From positions 62,001 through 126,000 of the forward strand of contig JAPZUD010000007.1 in NCBI GenBank assembly GCA_027533425.1: 64,000 bases of DNA, written 5' to 3'. Made by a program: the position numbers and the translations under genes. Below the pieces are notes generated by a model, which saw nothing but the letters and a program-made list of their open reading frames with translations, ran no database searches and had not been told where the DNA came from. Below, piece by piece: positions 6,835-20,394 of this stretch. Origin of the DNA: Beijerinckiaceae bacterium. GTDB taxonomy: Bacteria; Pseudomonadota; Alphaproteobacteria; Rhizobiales; Beijerinckiaceae. Each line of letters starts with the position of its first letter. Position 1 is the stretch's first letter.

Positions 6835-7377
6835 TCACATCTCCTCCGCCCCGCGGGCAATCGCCGCCGCTCCGGTCCGCGACACCTCGACCAGTCCGAT
6901 TGCCGTCATCAGGTTGATGAAGCGCTCGACATCATCGGCCGGGCCGGCCAGCTCGAAGATGAAGGAGTTCAGCGTCGCATCGACGGTCTTGGCGCCGAAG
7001 GCGGTCGCGAGGCGCAGGGCCTCCATCCGGTGCTCGGCGCGATGCTCGCCATATTGCGCCACCTTGACGAGAGCGAGTTCGCGCTCGATCGAGGCCTTGG
7101 CCGAGAGGTTGACCACCTTGTGCACCGGCACCAGCCGGTCGAGCTGCGCCTCGATCTGGTTCAGCACCGAAGGCGTGCCCGAGGTCACGATGGTGATGCG
7201 CGAGAGATGCTTCTCGTGCTCGGTTTCCGAGACCGTGAGGCTCTCGATATTGTAGCCACGGCCCGAAAACATCCCGGCGATCCGCGCCAGCACGCCCGGC
7301 TCGTTATCGACCAGCACGCAGAAGGTCCGGCGCTCGGTCACGGGCTTTTCGGTCTGGTCGGCATAATGCGATTTCAT
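6835..7377 (-). CDS. ilvN: Acetolactate synthase small (regulatory) subunit
   Basis: The 180-residue product is the regulatory subunit of acetohydroxyacid synthase and normally confers valine feedback on the large subunit. An ACT domain spans about residues 17-90 (TFCVLVDNEPGVLARIAGMFSGRGYNIESLTV region), followed by the C-terminal ALS_ss_C domain. ATG at 7377 is preferred because the open frame upstream of it encodes a Cys/Arg-rich stretch unlike the family. The dehydratase gene ends 14 bases upstream, so ilvB, the dehydratase gene and ilvN appear to form one operon. Confidence 0.95.
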   Translation of the reverse strand: MKSHYADQTEKPVTERRTFCVLVDNEPGVLARIAGMFSGRGYNIESLTVSETEHEKHLSRITIVTSGTPSVLNQIEAQLDRLVPVHKVVNLSAKASIERELALVKVAQYGEHRAEHRMEALRLATAFGAKTVDATLNSFIFELAGPADDVERFINLMTAIGLVEVSRTGAAAIARGAEEM

Positions 7378-7391
7378 CTCGTCATTCCTCG

Positions 7392-8369
7392 TCACGCAGC
7401 AGCAGCGGCCGGGCTTGCGAGAACCCAGCGCTGGAAAAGGGCAAGATCGATATTGCCGCCGCACAGGATGACCCCGGTCTTGCCGGTCAGTCGGTCACGG
7501 TCCTGCAGGGCAGCCGCCAGCGGCGCCGCCCCGGCGCCCTCGGCAAGATTGTGGGTATCCGTCCAGTAGGCCCGGATCGCGGCGGCGATTTCATCATCCG
7601 TGACCTGCACGATGCGCGCGGCCCCCCGCGCGATGATCTCGAGCGATTCCGGATCGGGCACACGGGTCGCCATGCCATCGGCATGGGTGACGGCGCTCTC
7701 GGTCGAAACGAGCCGCCCGGCCGCGAAGGACAGGGCATAGGCCGGCGCGCCCACCGATTGCACGCCGATGATCTCGGTCTTCAGGCCGAGCAGGTCGCGG
7801 ACAAGAATACAGCCGCAAATGCCCGAGCCCTGCCCGATCGGCACATAGATCCGCGCGAGATCGGGATGGGCGCGCAGCAATTCCAGCGCATAGGTCGCCA
7901 CGCCGAGGACCAGATCGCGATGGAAGGACGGCACCATCTCGAGGCCCCGCATCCCGGCAAGGCGCATGGCTTCCTCGCGCGCGGCCTGGAAATCCTCGCC
8001 ATGCTCGATCAGTTCGGCCCCGAAAGCCGTCATCGCAGCGTTCTTCTCGGTGGAATTGCCGCGCGGCACGAGGATCGTCACCCCGACGCCATGCTGGCGG
8101 CCGGCAAAGGCGAGGCTCTGGCCGTGATTGCCGCGCGTCGCCGAGATGATGCCCGCCACGCCCGGCCGCTCGCGCTTCAGCCGGTCGAGATAGACCAGCC
8201 CGCCGCGCACCTTGAAGGCGCCGGTCGGGGTGTGGTTCTCGTGCTTCACGACCAGCTCCGCGCCGAGCCGGGCCGCCAGAAGCGGCCAGCTCCGCTGCGG
8301 GGTGGGCGGCATGGCCGCCTGCACCACGCCATGCGCGGCTTCGAGTTCGGCAAGGCTGAACATCGTCAC
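7392..8369 (-). CDS. Threonine/serine dehydratase-type PLP enzyme
   Basis: The 325-residue fold-type II PLP enzyme has its Schiff-base lysine in TGAFKVRGG (about residue 53), the phosphate-binding tetraglycine-like loop GQGSGICG near residue 180 and a C-terminal LCGGN. It would deaminate threonine to 2-oxobutyrate, the entry to isoleucine, or act on serine or a related amino acid. It lacks the C-terminal ACT-like regulatory domains of full-length IlvA (about 500 residues). The GTG start overlaps the ilvB stop (GTGA); an ATG six bases later is an alternative. It sits between the two AHAS subunit genes, which points to isoleucine synthesis, but EutB-like enzymes look similar. Confidence 0.85.
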   Translation of the reverse strand: MTMFSLAELEAAHGVVQAAMPPTPQRSWPLLAARLGAELVVKHENHTPTGAFKVRGGLVYLDRLKRERPGVAGIISATRGNHGQSLAFAGRQHGVGVTILVPRGNSTEKNAAMTAFGAELIEHGEDFQAAREEAMRLAGMRGLEMVPSFHRDLVLGVATYALELLRAHPDLARIYVPIGQGSGICGCILVRDLLGLKTEIIGVQSVGAPAYALSFAAGRLVSTESAVTHADGMATRVPDPESLEIIARGAARIVQVTDDEIAAAIRAYWTDTHNLAEGAGAAPLAAALQDRDRLTGKTGVILCGGNIDLALFQRWVLASPAAAAA

Positions 8370-10126
8370 ACCAGCTGCTTGCCCTTGGCGTCGATCACAT
8401 CGCCGACCTTGCCGGCGAAATCCGGCAGGATCATCTCGTTATGGGCCTTGCCCGAGGGGATCATCGGGAAGCAATTCTCTTCCTTGGCGACGAGGCAATC
8501 GAAGATCACCGGGCCGGGATAATCGATCATCTCCTGGATCGCGGCATCGAGCTGTGCCGGGTCAGCACAGCGGATGCCCTTGGCGTGATAGGCCTCGGCC
8601 AGCTTCACGAAATCCGGCAGGGCGCTCGAATAGCTCTCGGAATAGCGGCCGCCATGCAGCAATTCCTGCCATTGCCGCACCATGCCCATATACTCGTTGT
8701 TGAGGATGAAAATCTTGACTGGCAGGCGATACTGCGCCGCCGTCGACATTTCCTGCATGTTCATCAGGATGGAGGCCTCGCCGGCAATGTCGATCACCAG
8801 CGCATCCGGATGCGCCATCTGCACGCCGATCGCCGCCGGCAGCCCATAGCCCATCGTGCCGAGCCCGCCCGAGGTCATCCAGCGGTTCGGCTCATCGAAA
8901 TGGAAATGCTGGGCCGCCCACATCTGGTGCTGGCCGACTTCCGTCGTCACATAGGTCGAGCGGTCCTTGGTCAGCGCATAGAGCCGCTCGATCGCGTATT
9001 GCGGCTTGATGATGCTGTCGGAATTCTGGTAGCCGAGCGAATTGCGCGCCCGCCACCTGTTGATCTCGCCCCACCAGCTCTTCAGCGCCTCTGAATCGAC
9101 CTGGTACTTCTTCTCGCGCCAGATGCGGATCATCTCCGCCAGCACGCGGGTACAATCGCCGACAATGCCGATATCGGCCTTGACGTTCTTGTTGATCGAG
9201 GACGGATCGATATCGACATGGATCTTCTTCGAGCCCGGCGAGAAGGCATCGAGGCGCCCGGTGATCCGGTCATCGAAGCGCGCGCCGAGATTGATCATCA
9301 CGTCGCAGCCATGCATGGCGAGATTGGCCTCGTAGGTGCCGTGCATCCCGAGCATGCCGAGCCATTGCGGATTGTTGGCCGGGAAGGCGCCGAGGCCCAT
9401 CAGGGTCGAGGTCACCGGAAAGCCGGTGATCTGGGCGAATTCCCGCAGCAGGCGGCTGGCCTCGGGCCCGGAATTGATGATGCCGCCGCCAGTATAGAAG
9501 ACCGGCTTCTTCGCTTTCGCCATCAGGGCGAGCGCCGCTTCGATCCGGGCGGTATCGCCATCCATTTTCGGCCGGTAGGATTTGTGGATGATCTCGCCCG
9601 GGCCGTTATAGGCGCCGCGCGCGAACTGGATATCCTTGGGCACGTCGATCACCACCGGGCCCGGCCGGCCCGAACGGGCGACATAGAACGCCTCGTGGAT
9701 GATGCGCGGCAGATCCTCGATCCGCTTCACGAGGTAATTATGCTTGGTGCAATGGCGGGTAATGCCCACCGTGTCGCATTCCTGGAAGGCATCCGAGCCA
9801 ATGAGATGCGTTGGCACCTGCCCGGTGAAACAGACGATCGGGATTGAATCCATCAAGGCGTCGGTCAGGCCGGTCACGGCATTGGTCGCGCCGGGGCCCG
9901 AGGTCACCAGCACCACGCCCACCTTGCCGGAGGAACGGGCATAGCCCTCGGCCGAATGCACGGCACCCTGCTCATGGCGGACGAGGATGTGCTGGACCGA
10001 ATTCTGCTGGAACAACGCATCGTAGATGGGGAGAACCGCACCGCCCGGATAGCCGAAGATGTGGTTCACATCATGGTCCTGCAGCGCACGCACCACCATT
10101 TCGGCGCCGGTCATCATCTCACTCAT
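8366..10126 (-). CDS. ilvB: Acetolactate synthase large (catalytic) subunit
   Basis: The 586-residue ThDP enzyme condenses pyruvate with pyruvate or 2-oxobutyrate, the first common step of valine, leucine and isoleucine synthesis. The N-terminal PYR domain contains GYPGGAVLPIYDAL and the catalytic glutamate in RHEQGAVHSAEGYARSSG; the central FAD-linked domain follows. The C-terminal PP domain has the cofactor motif DIAGEASILMN...NNEYMG, with Glu-Ala where many relatives have Asp-Gly. It is preceded by an attenuator leader (10191-10345) and overlaps the dehydratase gene by four bases. Confidence 0.97.
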   Translation of the reverse strand: MSEMMTGAEMVVRALQDHDVNHIFGYPGGAVLPIYDALFQQNSVQHILVRHEQGAVHSAEGYARSSGKVGVVLVTSGPGATNAVTGLTDALMDSIPIVCFTGQVPTHLIGSDAFQECDTVGITRHCTKHNYLVKRIEDLPRIIHEAFYVARSGRPGPVVIDVPKDIQFARGAYNGPGEIIHKSYRPKMDGDTARIEAALALMAKAKKPVFYTGGGIINSGPEASRLLREFAQITGFPVTSTLMGLGAFPANNPQWLGMLGMHGTYEANLAMHGCDVMINLGARFDDRITGRLDAFSPGSKKIHVDIDPSSINKNVKADIGIVGDCTRVLAEMIRIWREKKYQVDSEALKSWWGEINRWRARNSLGYQNSDSIIKPQYAIERLYALTKDRSTYVTTEVGQHQMWAAQHFHFDEPNRWMTSGGLGTMGYGLPAAIGVQMAHPDALVIDIAGEASILMNMQEMSTAAQYRLPVKIFILNNEYMGMVRQWQELLHGGRYSESYSSALPDFVKLAEAYHAKGIRCADPAQLDAAIQEMIDYPGPVIFDCLVAKEENCFPMIPSGKAHNEMILPDFAGKVGDVIDAKGKQLV

Positions 10127-10190: not shown

Positions 10191-10214
10191 AAAAAAGGCC
10201 CTCAGGGGGCCTTT
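10191..10214 (-). terminator. Attenuator terminator in the ilvB leader
   Basis: On the minus strand an eight-base-pair GC-rich stem (arms 10214-10207 and 10201-10194, with AAAGGCCC/GGGCCTTT ends) is followed by a run of six T. It lies 65-88 bases upstream of the ilvB start, inside the transcript, and not after any gene, which is the expected place for an attenuator. Confidence 0.85.
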
Positions 10215-10220
10215 GGATGC

Positions 10221-10265
10221 GCGCCGACAAGGAGTTCTGGCTCAGGCCAGCTCCGTCCTCGGCGC
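10221..10265 (-). promoter_or_regulatory. Pause-type hairpin overlapping the ilv leader peptide
   Basis: A long imperfect stem-loop covers the end of the leader reading frame and the bases after it. GCGCCG pairs with CGGCGC at the base, and GGAG-CTGGC pairs with GCCAG-CTCC near a four-base loop. It precedes the terminator hairpin by a few bases, as the 1:2 pause structure does in known amino acid attenuators. Confidence 0.7.
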
Positions 10266-10289
10266 ACTGCGTACAATAAGAAGCGACAT
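10242..10289 (-). CDS. ilvB leader peptide MSLLIVRSAPRTELA
   Basis: A 15-codon frame on the minus strand has ATG at 10289 and TGA at 10244-10242, and is preceded by a GAGGA ribosome site. Codons 3-6 are Leu-Leu-Ile-Val, the three end products of the pathway. Ribosome stalling there would change which downstream hairpin forms and so set read-through into ilvB. It is followed by a pause-type hairpin and a terminator with a T6 tail. This is the arrangement of IlvL/IvbL-type transcription attenuators; the peptide itself has no other function. It is too short for ordinary gene calling. Confidence 0.85.
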   Translation of the reverse strand: MSLLIVRSAPRTELA

Positions 10290-10316
10290 GGAATCCTCGT
10301 CGGCAATTCGGGCGGC

Positions 10317-10345
10317 ACGCTACACACCGCCGGAAACAGCGTCAA
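10317..10345 (-). promoter_or_regulatory. Promoter of the attenuated ilvB operon
   Basis: On the minus strand, TTGACG (10345-10340), a 17-base spacer and TAGCGT (10322-10317) would start transcription near 10309, about 20 bases before the leader peptide ATG. Position and consensus both fit. Confidence 0.6.
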
Positions 10346-10525: not shown

Positions 10526-11995
10526 GTGAGTTTTGTCATAGTCCCGGTGGAACCCCTGTTGAGTAACGAACTGTTCACCGCCGACCTCGAGGTCCGGTTG
10601 CGGAGTGCGGAAGCCAACCTGCTTCTGCGGCGTTTCCGTGCGGCGCGAAAGGCGTCCGGAGCAGCGACGATCGCCATGCTTGATCGTGATGTGATGAAGC
10701 AATACGGGCAGAATCTCGTGGTCATCGAGCCGGCGGAAAACGGGGAATTCGCATTCCTCTATGCCGGCTCCCAGGTGCCGGATGATGCCGGCGCCACCCT
10801 CGGGGCAAAAACCACCACGGTCATCAGCCGCGAGGCTGGCGAATTGTATCGCCTCGGCTGCCGGGAGGCCGGCCTCGCCGGCGACGCCGTCTGCGTGAAC
10901 CATCAATCCGGTCCGGAATCCAAGGTCCATCGCTGGGAATGCCTCTTCCTCCCCATCACCGATGCGGAAGGGCGCCCGATCCTTGTGGCCCTGTGCATTC
11001 CCCGTGAGTACAAGCACGAATTCTTCCGGGCGGTCCTCGATGCGATGCCGCATGGCGCCTTCGTGGCCGAACCCGTGCGGGATGCGCATAACGAGATCGT
11101 CGATGCGCGGATCATCGCCGCGAATGCCCGCGGCATCGAGATCTGCGGACATCCCGATCTTGATGCGCTCCAGGGCTGCTCGATCACGGGGGCCATGGGC
11201 GATGGCGCTCCCCTTGGCCCGTGGGACCGGCACCTCGCCGTCCTGCGCAGCGGCAAGGGCCAGAGCTTCGATCATCATCACCGGAGCGAGACCGGCTCGC
11301 ACTGGTACCAGATGCACGCCGCGCCGATGCGGGATGGCCTGCTCGTCAGCGTGGTCGACATCACCGAGATCAAGCAGGGGTTCCTCGAACTCGAACACCA
11401 GCGCAAGATGCTGCTGGACGAGATGGAGCAGCGGCGCGGCCTCGAGCAGGAACTCTGGGCCCTTGCGCATCACGATCCGCTGACATCCCTGCCGAACCGC
11501 CGGGCCTTCCGCGACGCGGCGATGCTCAAGCTGGCGGAAGCGCAGACCACCCACCGCCCTTGCGCGATGATCACGATCGACATCGATCACTTCAAGCGCG
11601 TCAACGATGCCTTCGGCCATGGCGCGGGCGACACGGTGCTTCGGCGCGTTGCGGACATCATCAAGGCGCCGTTGCGCCCGAATACCGATATCGCGGCCCG
11701 CATGGGGGGCGAGGAATTCACGATCCTGCTGCCGGACACCGATTCGGAAGCGGCCATTGTCTTCGCTGAAAAGCTGCGGCTGACGGTCGAGCAAAGCGTC
11801 GTTGTCACCGCCGAGCAGGAAATCCGCTGCACGATCAGCATCGGCATCGCCCTGAATCGCAAGACCTCCAACCTTGATGACCTGATCAACCGCGCGGACC
11901 GGGCGCTCTACACCGCCAAGCGCAGCGGTCGGAACAAGGTGGCGACCGAACTTGACGTCCAGGCCGGGCCAAAGAGCTCCATCGCGGCGGCCTGA
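10526..11995 (+). CDS. PAS-GGDEF diguanylate cyclase
   Basis: The product of up to 489 residues has an N-terminal sensory region with one or two PAS-like folds (about 40-150 and 165-290), a short coiled coil (LELEHQRKMLLDEMEQRRGLEQEL) and a GGDEF domain from about 315. The active site is GGEEF at 394-398, so it probably makes cyclic di-GMP. The residues that usually form the RxxD inhibitory site read PNTD, so product inhibition may be lost. The GTG at 10526 has no clear ribosome site; TTG at 10559 after GGTGGA is a possible start. There is no transmembrane segment. It is divergent from the ilvB operon. Confidence 0.9.
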   Translation: MSFVIVPVEPLLSNELFTADLEVRLRSAEANLLLRRFRAARKASGAATIAMLDRDVMKQYGQNLVVIEPAENGEFAFLYAGSQVPDDAGATLGAKTTTVISREAGELYRLGCREAGLAGDAVCVNHQSGPESKVHRWECLFLPITDAEGRPILVALCIPREYKHEFFRAVLDAMPHGAFVAEPVRDAHNEIVDARIIAANARGIEICGHPDLDALQGCSITGAMGDGAPLGPWDRHLAVLRSGKGQSFDHHHRSETGSHWYQMHAAPMRDGLLVSVVDITEIKQGFLELEHQRKMLLDEMEQRRGLEQELWALAHHDPLTSLPNRRAFRDAAMLKLAEAQTTHRPCAMITIDIDHFKRVNDAFGHGAGDTVLRRVADIIKAPLRPNTDIAARMGGEEFTILLPDTDSEAAIVFAEKLRLTVEQSVVVTAEQEIRCTISIGIALNRKTSNLDDLINRADRALYTAKRSGRNKVATELDVQAGPKSSIAAA

Positions 11996-19806: not shown

Positions 19807-19965
19807 GCACGTTCCCTCCCACACGACATTCATCGGAAGCCGGCCCGCAAGCCTGACTGCGCCGATAAATGGATCACGATTCCGGGACGAACGCCACCGG
19901 ATTTCCAAGAAAATCCACCATTCCGGAGCGAAATGCCACGGCGGCGAAGAATCTGCGTTTATCCC

Positions 19966-19994
19966 TTCAATTCGGCGCGCAACACCCCTATATT
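19966..19994 (+). promoter_or_regulatory. Putative ssrA promoter
   Basis: TATATT (19989-19994, five of six consensus bases) is preceded, after 17 bases, by a weaker TTCAAT (19966-19971). The predicted start near 20001 is where the tmRNA acceptor piece should begin. Confidence 0.5.
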
Positions 19995-20080
19995 GACGGT
20001 GTCGTCCTCGTGGCGACTATGGCGATAAACGGCTGTCGTAATAAACCCATCGGACCCGGGGGCGGTACCCGGCGCCTCCA

Positions 20081-20106
20081 CCTCAAGGCCGCATGCGGCC
20101 TTGAGG
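20081..20106 (+). other. Excised hairpin between tmRNA acceptor and coding pieces
   Basis: The 26 bases form a fully self-complementary palindrome (arms CCTCAAGGCCGCA and its complement) between the 3' end of the acceptor piece and the mature 5' end of the coding piece. In permuted tmRNAs this loop is cut out by tRNA-processing enzymes such as RNase P. Confidence 0.75.
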
Positions 20107-20191
20107 CGGGGGCGAAACAGGATCGACGAGGGCGTAAAGGGTAGACTTTCGCTCGGCATGATACCGCCGTTATCGGGTCAAACCTATAGTT

Positions 20192-20230
20192 GCGAATGAC
20201 AACTATGCTCCGGTTGCCCAGGCCGCGTAA
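20192..20230 (+). other. tmRNA tag reading frame ANDNYAPVAQAA
   Basis: The resume codon GCG at 20192 is followed by AAT GAC AAC TAT and so on up to TAA at 20228-20230. With the alanine carried by the tmRNA the tag is A-ANDNYAPVAQAA. The AND-N-Y start is the part bound by SspB, and the C-terminal Ala-Ala is the ClpX signal. Confidence 0.93.
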
Positions 20231-20394
20231 CGCGGTTTGGAATTCCGAACCTAAGTCCTTGCGGGTAGCACCGTAAGGCGGGGCCGGCAGGCGCCTGGCA
20301 ACAGAAGCCTGCCACTTTCCTGACCGCCGGGCTCCGCCTCTTTCCGGATCCGGAGAATCAGGGTCTTGTCCGGTAGCCGACGCCAAGGGGCCCC

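Follow-up and report, generated by a model that had tools for sequence, protein, structure and literature searches.

Attenuation of ilvBN is established in Caulobacter, according to a paper citing Tarleton 1994 (PMC4117421), and an ilvIH cis-regulatory element is listed for Sinorhizobium meliloti in another, citing Vitreschak 2004 (PMC2573895). Because of these two systems, the kind of element reported here is already known. The selective-charging theory was worked out for E. coli; according to that work, isoacceptors lose charge selectively and attenuators favour the codon most sensitive to shortage (PMC1183508).

Here we describe such an element in a 64,000-nucleotide stretch of a Beijerinckiaceae genome (assembly GCA_027533425.1, contig JAPZUD010000007.1, positions 62,001 to 126,000), hereafter the window. 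As read from the window sequence, every part of the leader falls within 10345-10191 of the minus strand, ahead of ilvB and the genes that follow it:

10317..10345, minus strand: promoter-like site TTGACG-N17-TAGCGT (sequence; similar site in 52 of 84 distinct leaders)
10295..10298, minus strand: Shine-Dalgarno-like GAGG (sequence)
10242..10289, minus strand: leader peptide ORF MSLLIVRSAPRTELA, 15 codons, ATG...TGA (similar frames in the genus and beyond)
10272..10283, minus strand: control codons Leu CTT, Leu CTT, Ile ATT, Val GTA (sequence and comparison)
10219..10267, minus strand: long hairpin (present in 84 of 84 leaders; covariation)
10267-10259 with 10227-10219, minus strand: helix 1 of the long hairpin, closing the inner hairpin
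10257-10229, minus strand: inner hairpin around the leader stop codon, enclosed by helix 1
10244..10254, minus strand: candidate antiterminator strand GGAGCUGGCCU, pairing with 10212-10205 (-10.4 kcal/mol; not above shuffles)
10191..10214, minus strand: intrinsic terminator AAAGGCCCCCTGAGGGCCTTTTTT, GC hairpin and six T (sequence; comparison)
8366..10126, minus strand: ilvB, acetolactate synthase large subunit, start at 10126
7392..8369, minus strand: threonine dehydratase-like gene, PRK06110 family, between ilvB and ilvN
6835..7464, minus strand: reading frame that contains ilvN, acetolactate synthase small subunit (its family match starts at residue 44)

The promoter-like site, leader frame, hairpin and GC-rich terminator with six T, all placed before ilvB by the original prediction, are found where it put them. 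The leader ORF reads ATG TCG CTT CTT ATT GTA CGC AGT GCG CCG AGG ACG GAG CTG GCC TGA, and codons 3-6 (10283-10272) are indeed Leu-Leu-Ile-Val. The 171-nt leader stretch folds with a z of -3.2 against dinucleotide shuffles, 1/200 of which were equally good. A promoter motif picked after the sequences were read (TTGA[CT]-N16-18-TANNNT) occurs at most 90 nt upstream of the leader in 52/84 distinct leaders, with 0.22 expected from mononucleotide shuffles; the other 32/84 have no such site. No Rfam family except two tmRNA models reaches its cut-off in the window, and none does so near the leader, so there is no riboswitch or T-box match. An alphaproteobacterial permuted tmRNA gene lies at 19962-20316 on the plus strand.

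Downstream of the leader the gene order is ilvB, threonine dehydratase-like gene, ilvN. A PRK06110-type gene stands between ilvB and ilvN in 10/110 ilvB loci, an arrangement that would place an enzyme of the isoleucine branch under the ilvB attenuator. Divergent from the leader is a diguanylate cyclase-like gene (10526-11995, plus strand; GGDEF-type by eye), a homologue of which lies opposite ilvB in 13/110 loci.

These 110 ilvB loci comprise the best 80 of 595 from named genomes and 30 from relatives, the window's genome among them, with some overlap of genomes between the two sets. A script that asked for a Leu/Ile/Val run in a leader frame, plus a terminator before ilvB, called 91 of them, of which two (L067 and L068) were judged false and removed. 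Leader and terminator therefore precede ilvB in 89/110 loci, representing 84 distinct leaders, and all three residues occur in 79 of these 84. The exact leader had been thought new; it is not peculiar to this genome, and its frame, its terminator and its Leu/Ile/Val codons are all conserved among relatives. Among the 19 uncalled loci, the covariance model R1 matches L079 (E 9e-4) and L073 (E 0.03), the latter with a shortened leader. The remaining 17, together with L067 and L068, make 19/110 loci without a leader by these tests and without an R1 match at E up to 1, including those of Hyphomicrobium and Parvibaculum; they count against the attenuator reading.

A second covariance model, R2, consisting of helix 1 and the terminator, was run on those genomes of the order that passed a 95% completeness filter. 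It detects the element in 268/347, with one match in the window's own genome. Several genomes have two R2 matches (e.g. G059, G469, G516, G546, G573 and G634). Across the class, R1 finds the element in 4/289 genomes, all four in the window's family; we do not read this scarcity as absence, since the model derives from near relatives and was run with strict filters.

The stretch from run to terminator forms a hairpin in all 84 distinct leaders, with the stop codon inside it. Helix 1 starts 0-8 nt past the end of the run, 0-10 nt separate its end from the terminator, and the hairpin has a mean z of -3.8 against mononucleotide shuffles (82/84 below -2). In an alignment of 82 R1-fitted matches, 92.1% of cells in helix 1 and the terminator stem are paired, 140 cells show changes on both sides (32.9 in shuffles), and 6/7 pairs of helix 1 change on both sides; this alignment leans towards helix 1, because R1 itself contains that helix. 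RNAalifold on a MAFFT alignment (A1) made with no structure fitting returns the same helix, with both-side changes in 3/7 pairs. Covariation of stems, proposed as a check on the locus, is thus seen for helix 1 in both alignments. Across 42 aligned leaders from the wider group around the window, GTA never varies, and the core of helix 1 (GCGCC/GGCGC) varies hardly or not at all. The pause-type hairpin predicted over the leader's end does exist, but it is long and two-part, extending from just past the Val codon almost to the terminator. A pairing proposed by eye between the window's 5' UTR (GCCGACGAGG) and the 3' side of the hairpin was dropped, as L084 and L085 change the 3' side.

Given the conserved Leu/Ile/Val leader ORF, the covarying hairpin and the conserved terminator before ilvB, the element is very probably a ribosome-mediated transcription attenuator of the ilvB operon. 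The conserved run and covarying stem likewise support the principle of IlvL/IvbL-type attenuation that was first proposed for it.

Within the runs, Leu is encoded by CTT/CTC in 111/113 cases (41% in ilvB of the same loci), Val by GTA in 95/134 (0.9% in ilvB) and Ile by ATT in 65/105 (9.8% in ilvB). By standard decoding, CTT and CTC are read by tRNA-Leu(GAG) and GTA by tRNA-Val(UAC), while ATT and ATC are expected to share one tRNA. The window's genome has 42 tRNA matches, including five Leu tRNAs and one gene each for tRNA-Val(UAC), (GAC) and (CAC); tRNA-Ile(GAT) is not among the 42, and is perhaps absent from the assembly. The last control codon is GTA in 68 of the 84 distinct leaders, GTG in 12 and another in 4. 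With one codon each for Ile and Val, the leader's selectivity had been called unclear, and this is partly answered by comparison: the last control residue is Val in 81/84 leaders, preceded by Leu in 22, Ile in 31 and Val in 31. From these counts, the control codons CUU/CUC, AUU/AUC and GUA look as though they were chosen by tRNA isoacceptor.

Another explanation, possible but unlikely in our view, is that these odd codons reflect not isoacceptors but selection for RNA that is unstructured and rich in A+U close to the start codon, or for RNA pairing. The preference for ATT over ATC fits it, given that one tRNA is expected to read both, and by eye the GUGGUG of rhizobial leaders could pair with CCACC on the 3' side of the hairpin. 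However, CTC occurs 44 times in the runs and CTG once, though both end in G or C, so A+T richness is not the whole reason for codon choice. A change from GTA to GTG or GTC that accompanies the absence of tRNA-Val(CAC) in several families also speaks against this explanation.

Many rhizobial leaders close their run with GTG GTG, and this change was followed in three sets of genomes. In the first, 40 genomes chosen with their leaders known, the tRNA-Val(CAC) pattern was missing from 12, and GTG occurred in the run in 11 of these 12 vs 3/28 of the others; completeness in this set is unstated, so a missing tRNA may be an assembly gap. Each of the 12 has a GAC or UAC gene. The second set, drawn from the R2 matches listed, holds 25 leaders without the CAC pattern and 35 with it, the latter hand-picked for family spread, and the third holds 30 genomes picked by tRNA status before their leaders were read; both have completeness of 95% or more. 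A looser tRNA pattern, run on all genomes counted as lacking tRNA-Val(CAC), moved G388 to present, as confirmed by ARAGORN. Five further genomes (G642, G394, G351, G398 and G652) have a looser match with CAC letters in which ARAGORN sees no tRNA. We dropped two third-set leaders (G652, not parsed, and G500, ambiguous) and removed three duplicate genomes (L032, L009 and G541).

The codon rule varied between sets, from 'run contains GTA' in the first to 'last two run codons' in the second; the final rule, whether either of the run's two last Val codons is GTA, was applied to all only after all three sets had been seen. By this rule, GTA is absent in 38/51 genomes without a detected tRNA-Val(CAC) gene vs 2/74 with one (the exceptions being G490 and L059), and 13/51 genomes without the gene keep it. 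The third set alone gives 12/16 vs 0/12 (p 7e-5). Within a single genus (g299), the runs of members with tRNA-Val(CAC) end in GTA GTA in 5/5 read (G421, G515, G534, G613 and G697), and those of the five read without it end in GTC GTG or GTC GTC (G451, G549, G591, G625 and G689). Seven genomes without tRNA-Val(CAC) have two or three tRNA-Val(UAC) matches (G630, G652, G676, G700, G434, G525 and G571), as if duplication had compensated for the missing gene.

The trend is not that of the genes themselves. In ilvB, GTA is rare in both groups (1.9% of Val codons without tRNA-Val(CAC), 1.0% with), and GTG makes up 29% without the gene vs 48% with it. Since GTG is rarer in ilvB where tRNA-Val(CAC) is missing, the leaders' shift to GTG opposes the gene trend. 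The G+C content of ilvB in the first set is 61% without tRNA-Val(CAC) vs 64% with.

Because related genomes are not independent, tree-based pairs were needed. An IlvB tree with 126 rows yields 12 supported independent pairs with a difference in tRNA-Val(CAC); the codon change is concordant in a mean of 5.3 of them, opposite in 0 and without difference in 6.6, and the sign test has a median p of 0.0625 (from 0.016 to 0.375). An alternative trait (any GTG in the run, or GTC in the last two Val codons) gives 6.6 concordant pairs and 1.1 opposite (median p 0.07). The earlier tree, smaller at 98 rows, supplied 9 pairs, of which 4.5 were concordant and 0 opposite (median p 0.125). Once relatedness is corrected, the codon-tRNA link is therefore borderline, a point in favour of RNA composition.

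A strict rule, by which leaders would use only codons read by tRNA-Val(UAC), fails, as some genomes without tRNA-Val(CAC) use GTC; our claim is consequently limited to codon choice following tRNA gene content. That codon choice follows valine tRNA gene content is, on these genome comparisons, suggestive but not proven, being borderline after tree correction with 12 pairs too few. GUA is expected to be read by tRNA-Val(UAC) alone. It is about an even call whether the final codon is held at GUA while tRNA-Val(CAC) exists, with GUG or GUC taking over where that gene is lost. If true, nature would itself have tested, several times over, the idea that the codons used in attenuators are those of the isoacceptor first to lose its charge; more than 120 natural variants of control codon and tRNA gene set would make selective charging testable across a bacterial order. 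In the literature searched, which left most subscription journals outside, we found no paper that compares species for a link between leader codons and tRNA gene content.

The same locus has a catalogued counterpart. The Rfam model RF02502 (Atu_C8) aligns across the entire leader, hairpin and terminator of the window, scoring 25.8 bits, below its gathering cut-off of 50 bits, and Rfam types it as an sRNA gene rather than a cis-regulatory leader. The model reaches its cut-off in 8/20 relatives' loci, each before ilvB, and matches in 7/21 genomes (2 above the cut-off), all just upstream of ilvB; there was no match in the window's genome (E 0.001) nor in 14 control genomes. In S. meliloti Ak57, a similar leader precedes annotated acetolactate synthase genes.

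A terminated leader could instead be mainly a trans-acting small RNA or the source of an active peptide, with attenuation in cis secondary. Rfam's typing agrees with such a role, and a model for it exists in Sinorhizobium, where rnTrpL RNA and the peTrpL peptide act, the peptide reportedly in trans (PMC7298713). It is nevertheless improbable as the main function, as every RF02502 match in these loci and genomes stands just before ilvB, the RNA encodes Leu/Ile/Val runs and the covariation fits a hairpin before a terminator. From these positions and alignments we conclude that Atu_C8 is the terminated ilvB leader, for which a further role in trans is possible. This corrects the label of a catalogued 'sRNA' family; in the literature searched, with most subscription journals and Rfam's family notes outside it, no paper equates Atu_C8 with the ilvB leader.

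Returning to attenuation in cis, with enough charged tRNA the ribosome would proceed to the stop codon and the terminator would form. When the charge of Val-, Ile- or Leu-tRNA is short, the ribosome would presumably halt on the last one or two control codons and cover the 5' strand of helix 1. The leader would then refold with the 5' arm of the terminator occupied, and RNA polymerase would read through into ilvB; in the window's genus the occupying strand may be GGxGCUGGCCU, which lies across the stop codon. Sensing would be graded, strongest for Val and the residue before it.

We modelled this by folding, with the forward edge of the ribosome 13 nt past the start of the A-site codon. In the model, a halt on the last codon, and less so on the one before, breaks helix 1 and frees the 5' arm for upstream pairing, so codon position may matter more than number, and the two Leu codons of LLIV may have little effect. 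Mean pairing of the terminator's 5' arm is 0.10, 0.11, 0.24 and 0.53 for halts on the fourth last, third last, second last and last codon, respectively. However, it is 0.48 without a ribosome and 0.49 with the ribosome at the stop codon, which counts against this reading, because both states should terminate. Engaging the 5' arm with the ribosome on the last codon yields a mean of -3.3 kcal/mol, vs -4.7 in shuffles (stronger) and -3.2 in the stop-codon state.

The pairing available in the genus joins GGxGCUGGCCU, at the stop codon, to AGGCCCCC at -10.4 to -18.0 kcal/mol; its mean z is -0.5, and shuffled letters are often as good. A candidate pairing matched by less than 5% of shuffles is found in 7/77 grouped leaders, including L004 (Bosea) and its close relative L101; by group, this is 1/16 in the genus, 4/26 in other near relatives, 2/2 of the Bosea type and 0/33 in the rest. 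As for a general antiterminator, ribosome-mask folding, engagement energy and duplex scans showed no excess over chance against shuffles. That folding does not demonstrate an antiterminator would suit a simple constitutive terminator in the leader, one that keeps basal expression low regardless of amino acids; this is a very remote prospect given the conserved amino-acid run, the codon choice and the spacing of run, helix and terminator.

The element is not confined to ilvB. In one genome (G614), a second R2 match precedes an MFS transporter gene rather than ilvB; its leader is MALVVVRERMGRMV, with a rhizobial hairpin and terminator. Such copies lie at:

L321, 90-235, and plasmid loci L322-L332 except L325: diverged Val-rich attenuator copy before an MFS transporter gene (large rhizobial replicons)

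A search of plasmid records returned 17 with similar DNA. Of 12 stretches opened, 10 have a transporter homologue downstream (45-70% identical) and 2 have ilvB; the strict form of the terminator was not found in 3 of the 10 transporter-linked stretches. The transporter scores 178.9 bits against the curated Bcr/CflA cut-off of 200.9 bits, and so falls below it. Some rhizobia thus carry a diverged copy of their ilvB-type attenuator ahead of an MFS transporter gene, a hint that a switch of this type can relocate to genes foreign to the pathway.

The attenuator itself is ordinary; its interest is in the codon-tRNA pattern, the relabelling of the Rfam family and the transporter copy. The Caulobacter crescentus ilvBN attenuator is like the window's in operon, class and principle. 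Two Phenylobacterium loci (L053 and L062) have leaders, MRNILVLVGRP and MRTILVLVGRP, with the same layout as in the window, although in both the leader and the inner hairpin are unlike those of the window. The S. meliloti ilvIH element shares the position and the proposed kind of control. Runs ending in GTG GTG are found in nine loci (Rhizobium, Sinorhizobium, Mycoplana, Nitratireductor and one further Rhizobiales), whereas the window's run ends in GTA. The multivalent branched-chain control of E. coli IlvL and IvbL rests on the same principle as the window's leader. Those leaders are about twice as long and hold many more control codons; the window's, in contrast, has four, with one each for Ile and Val.
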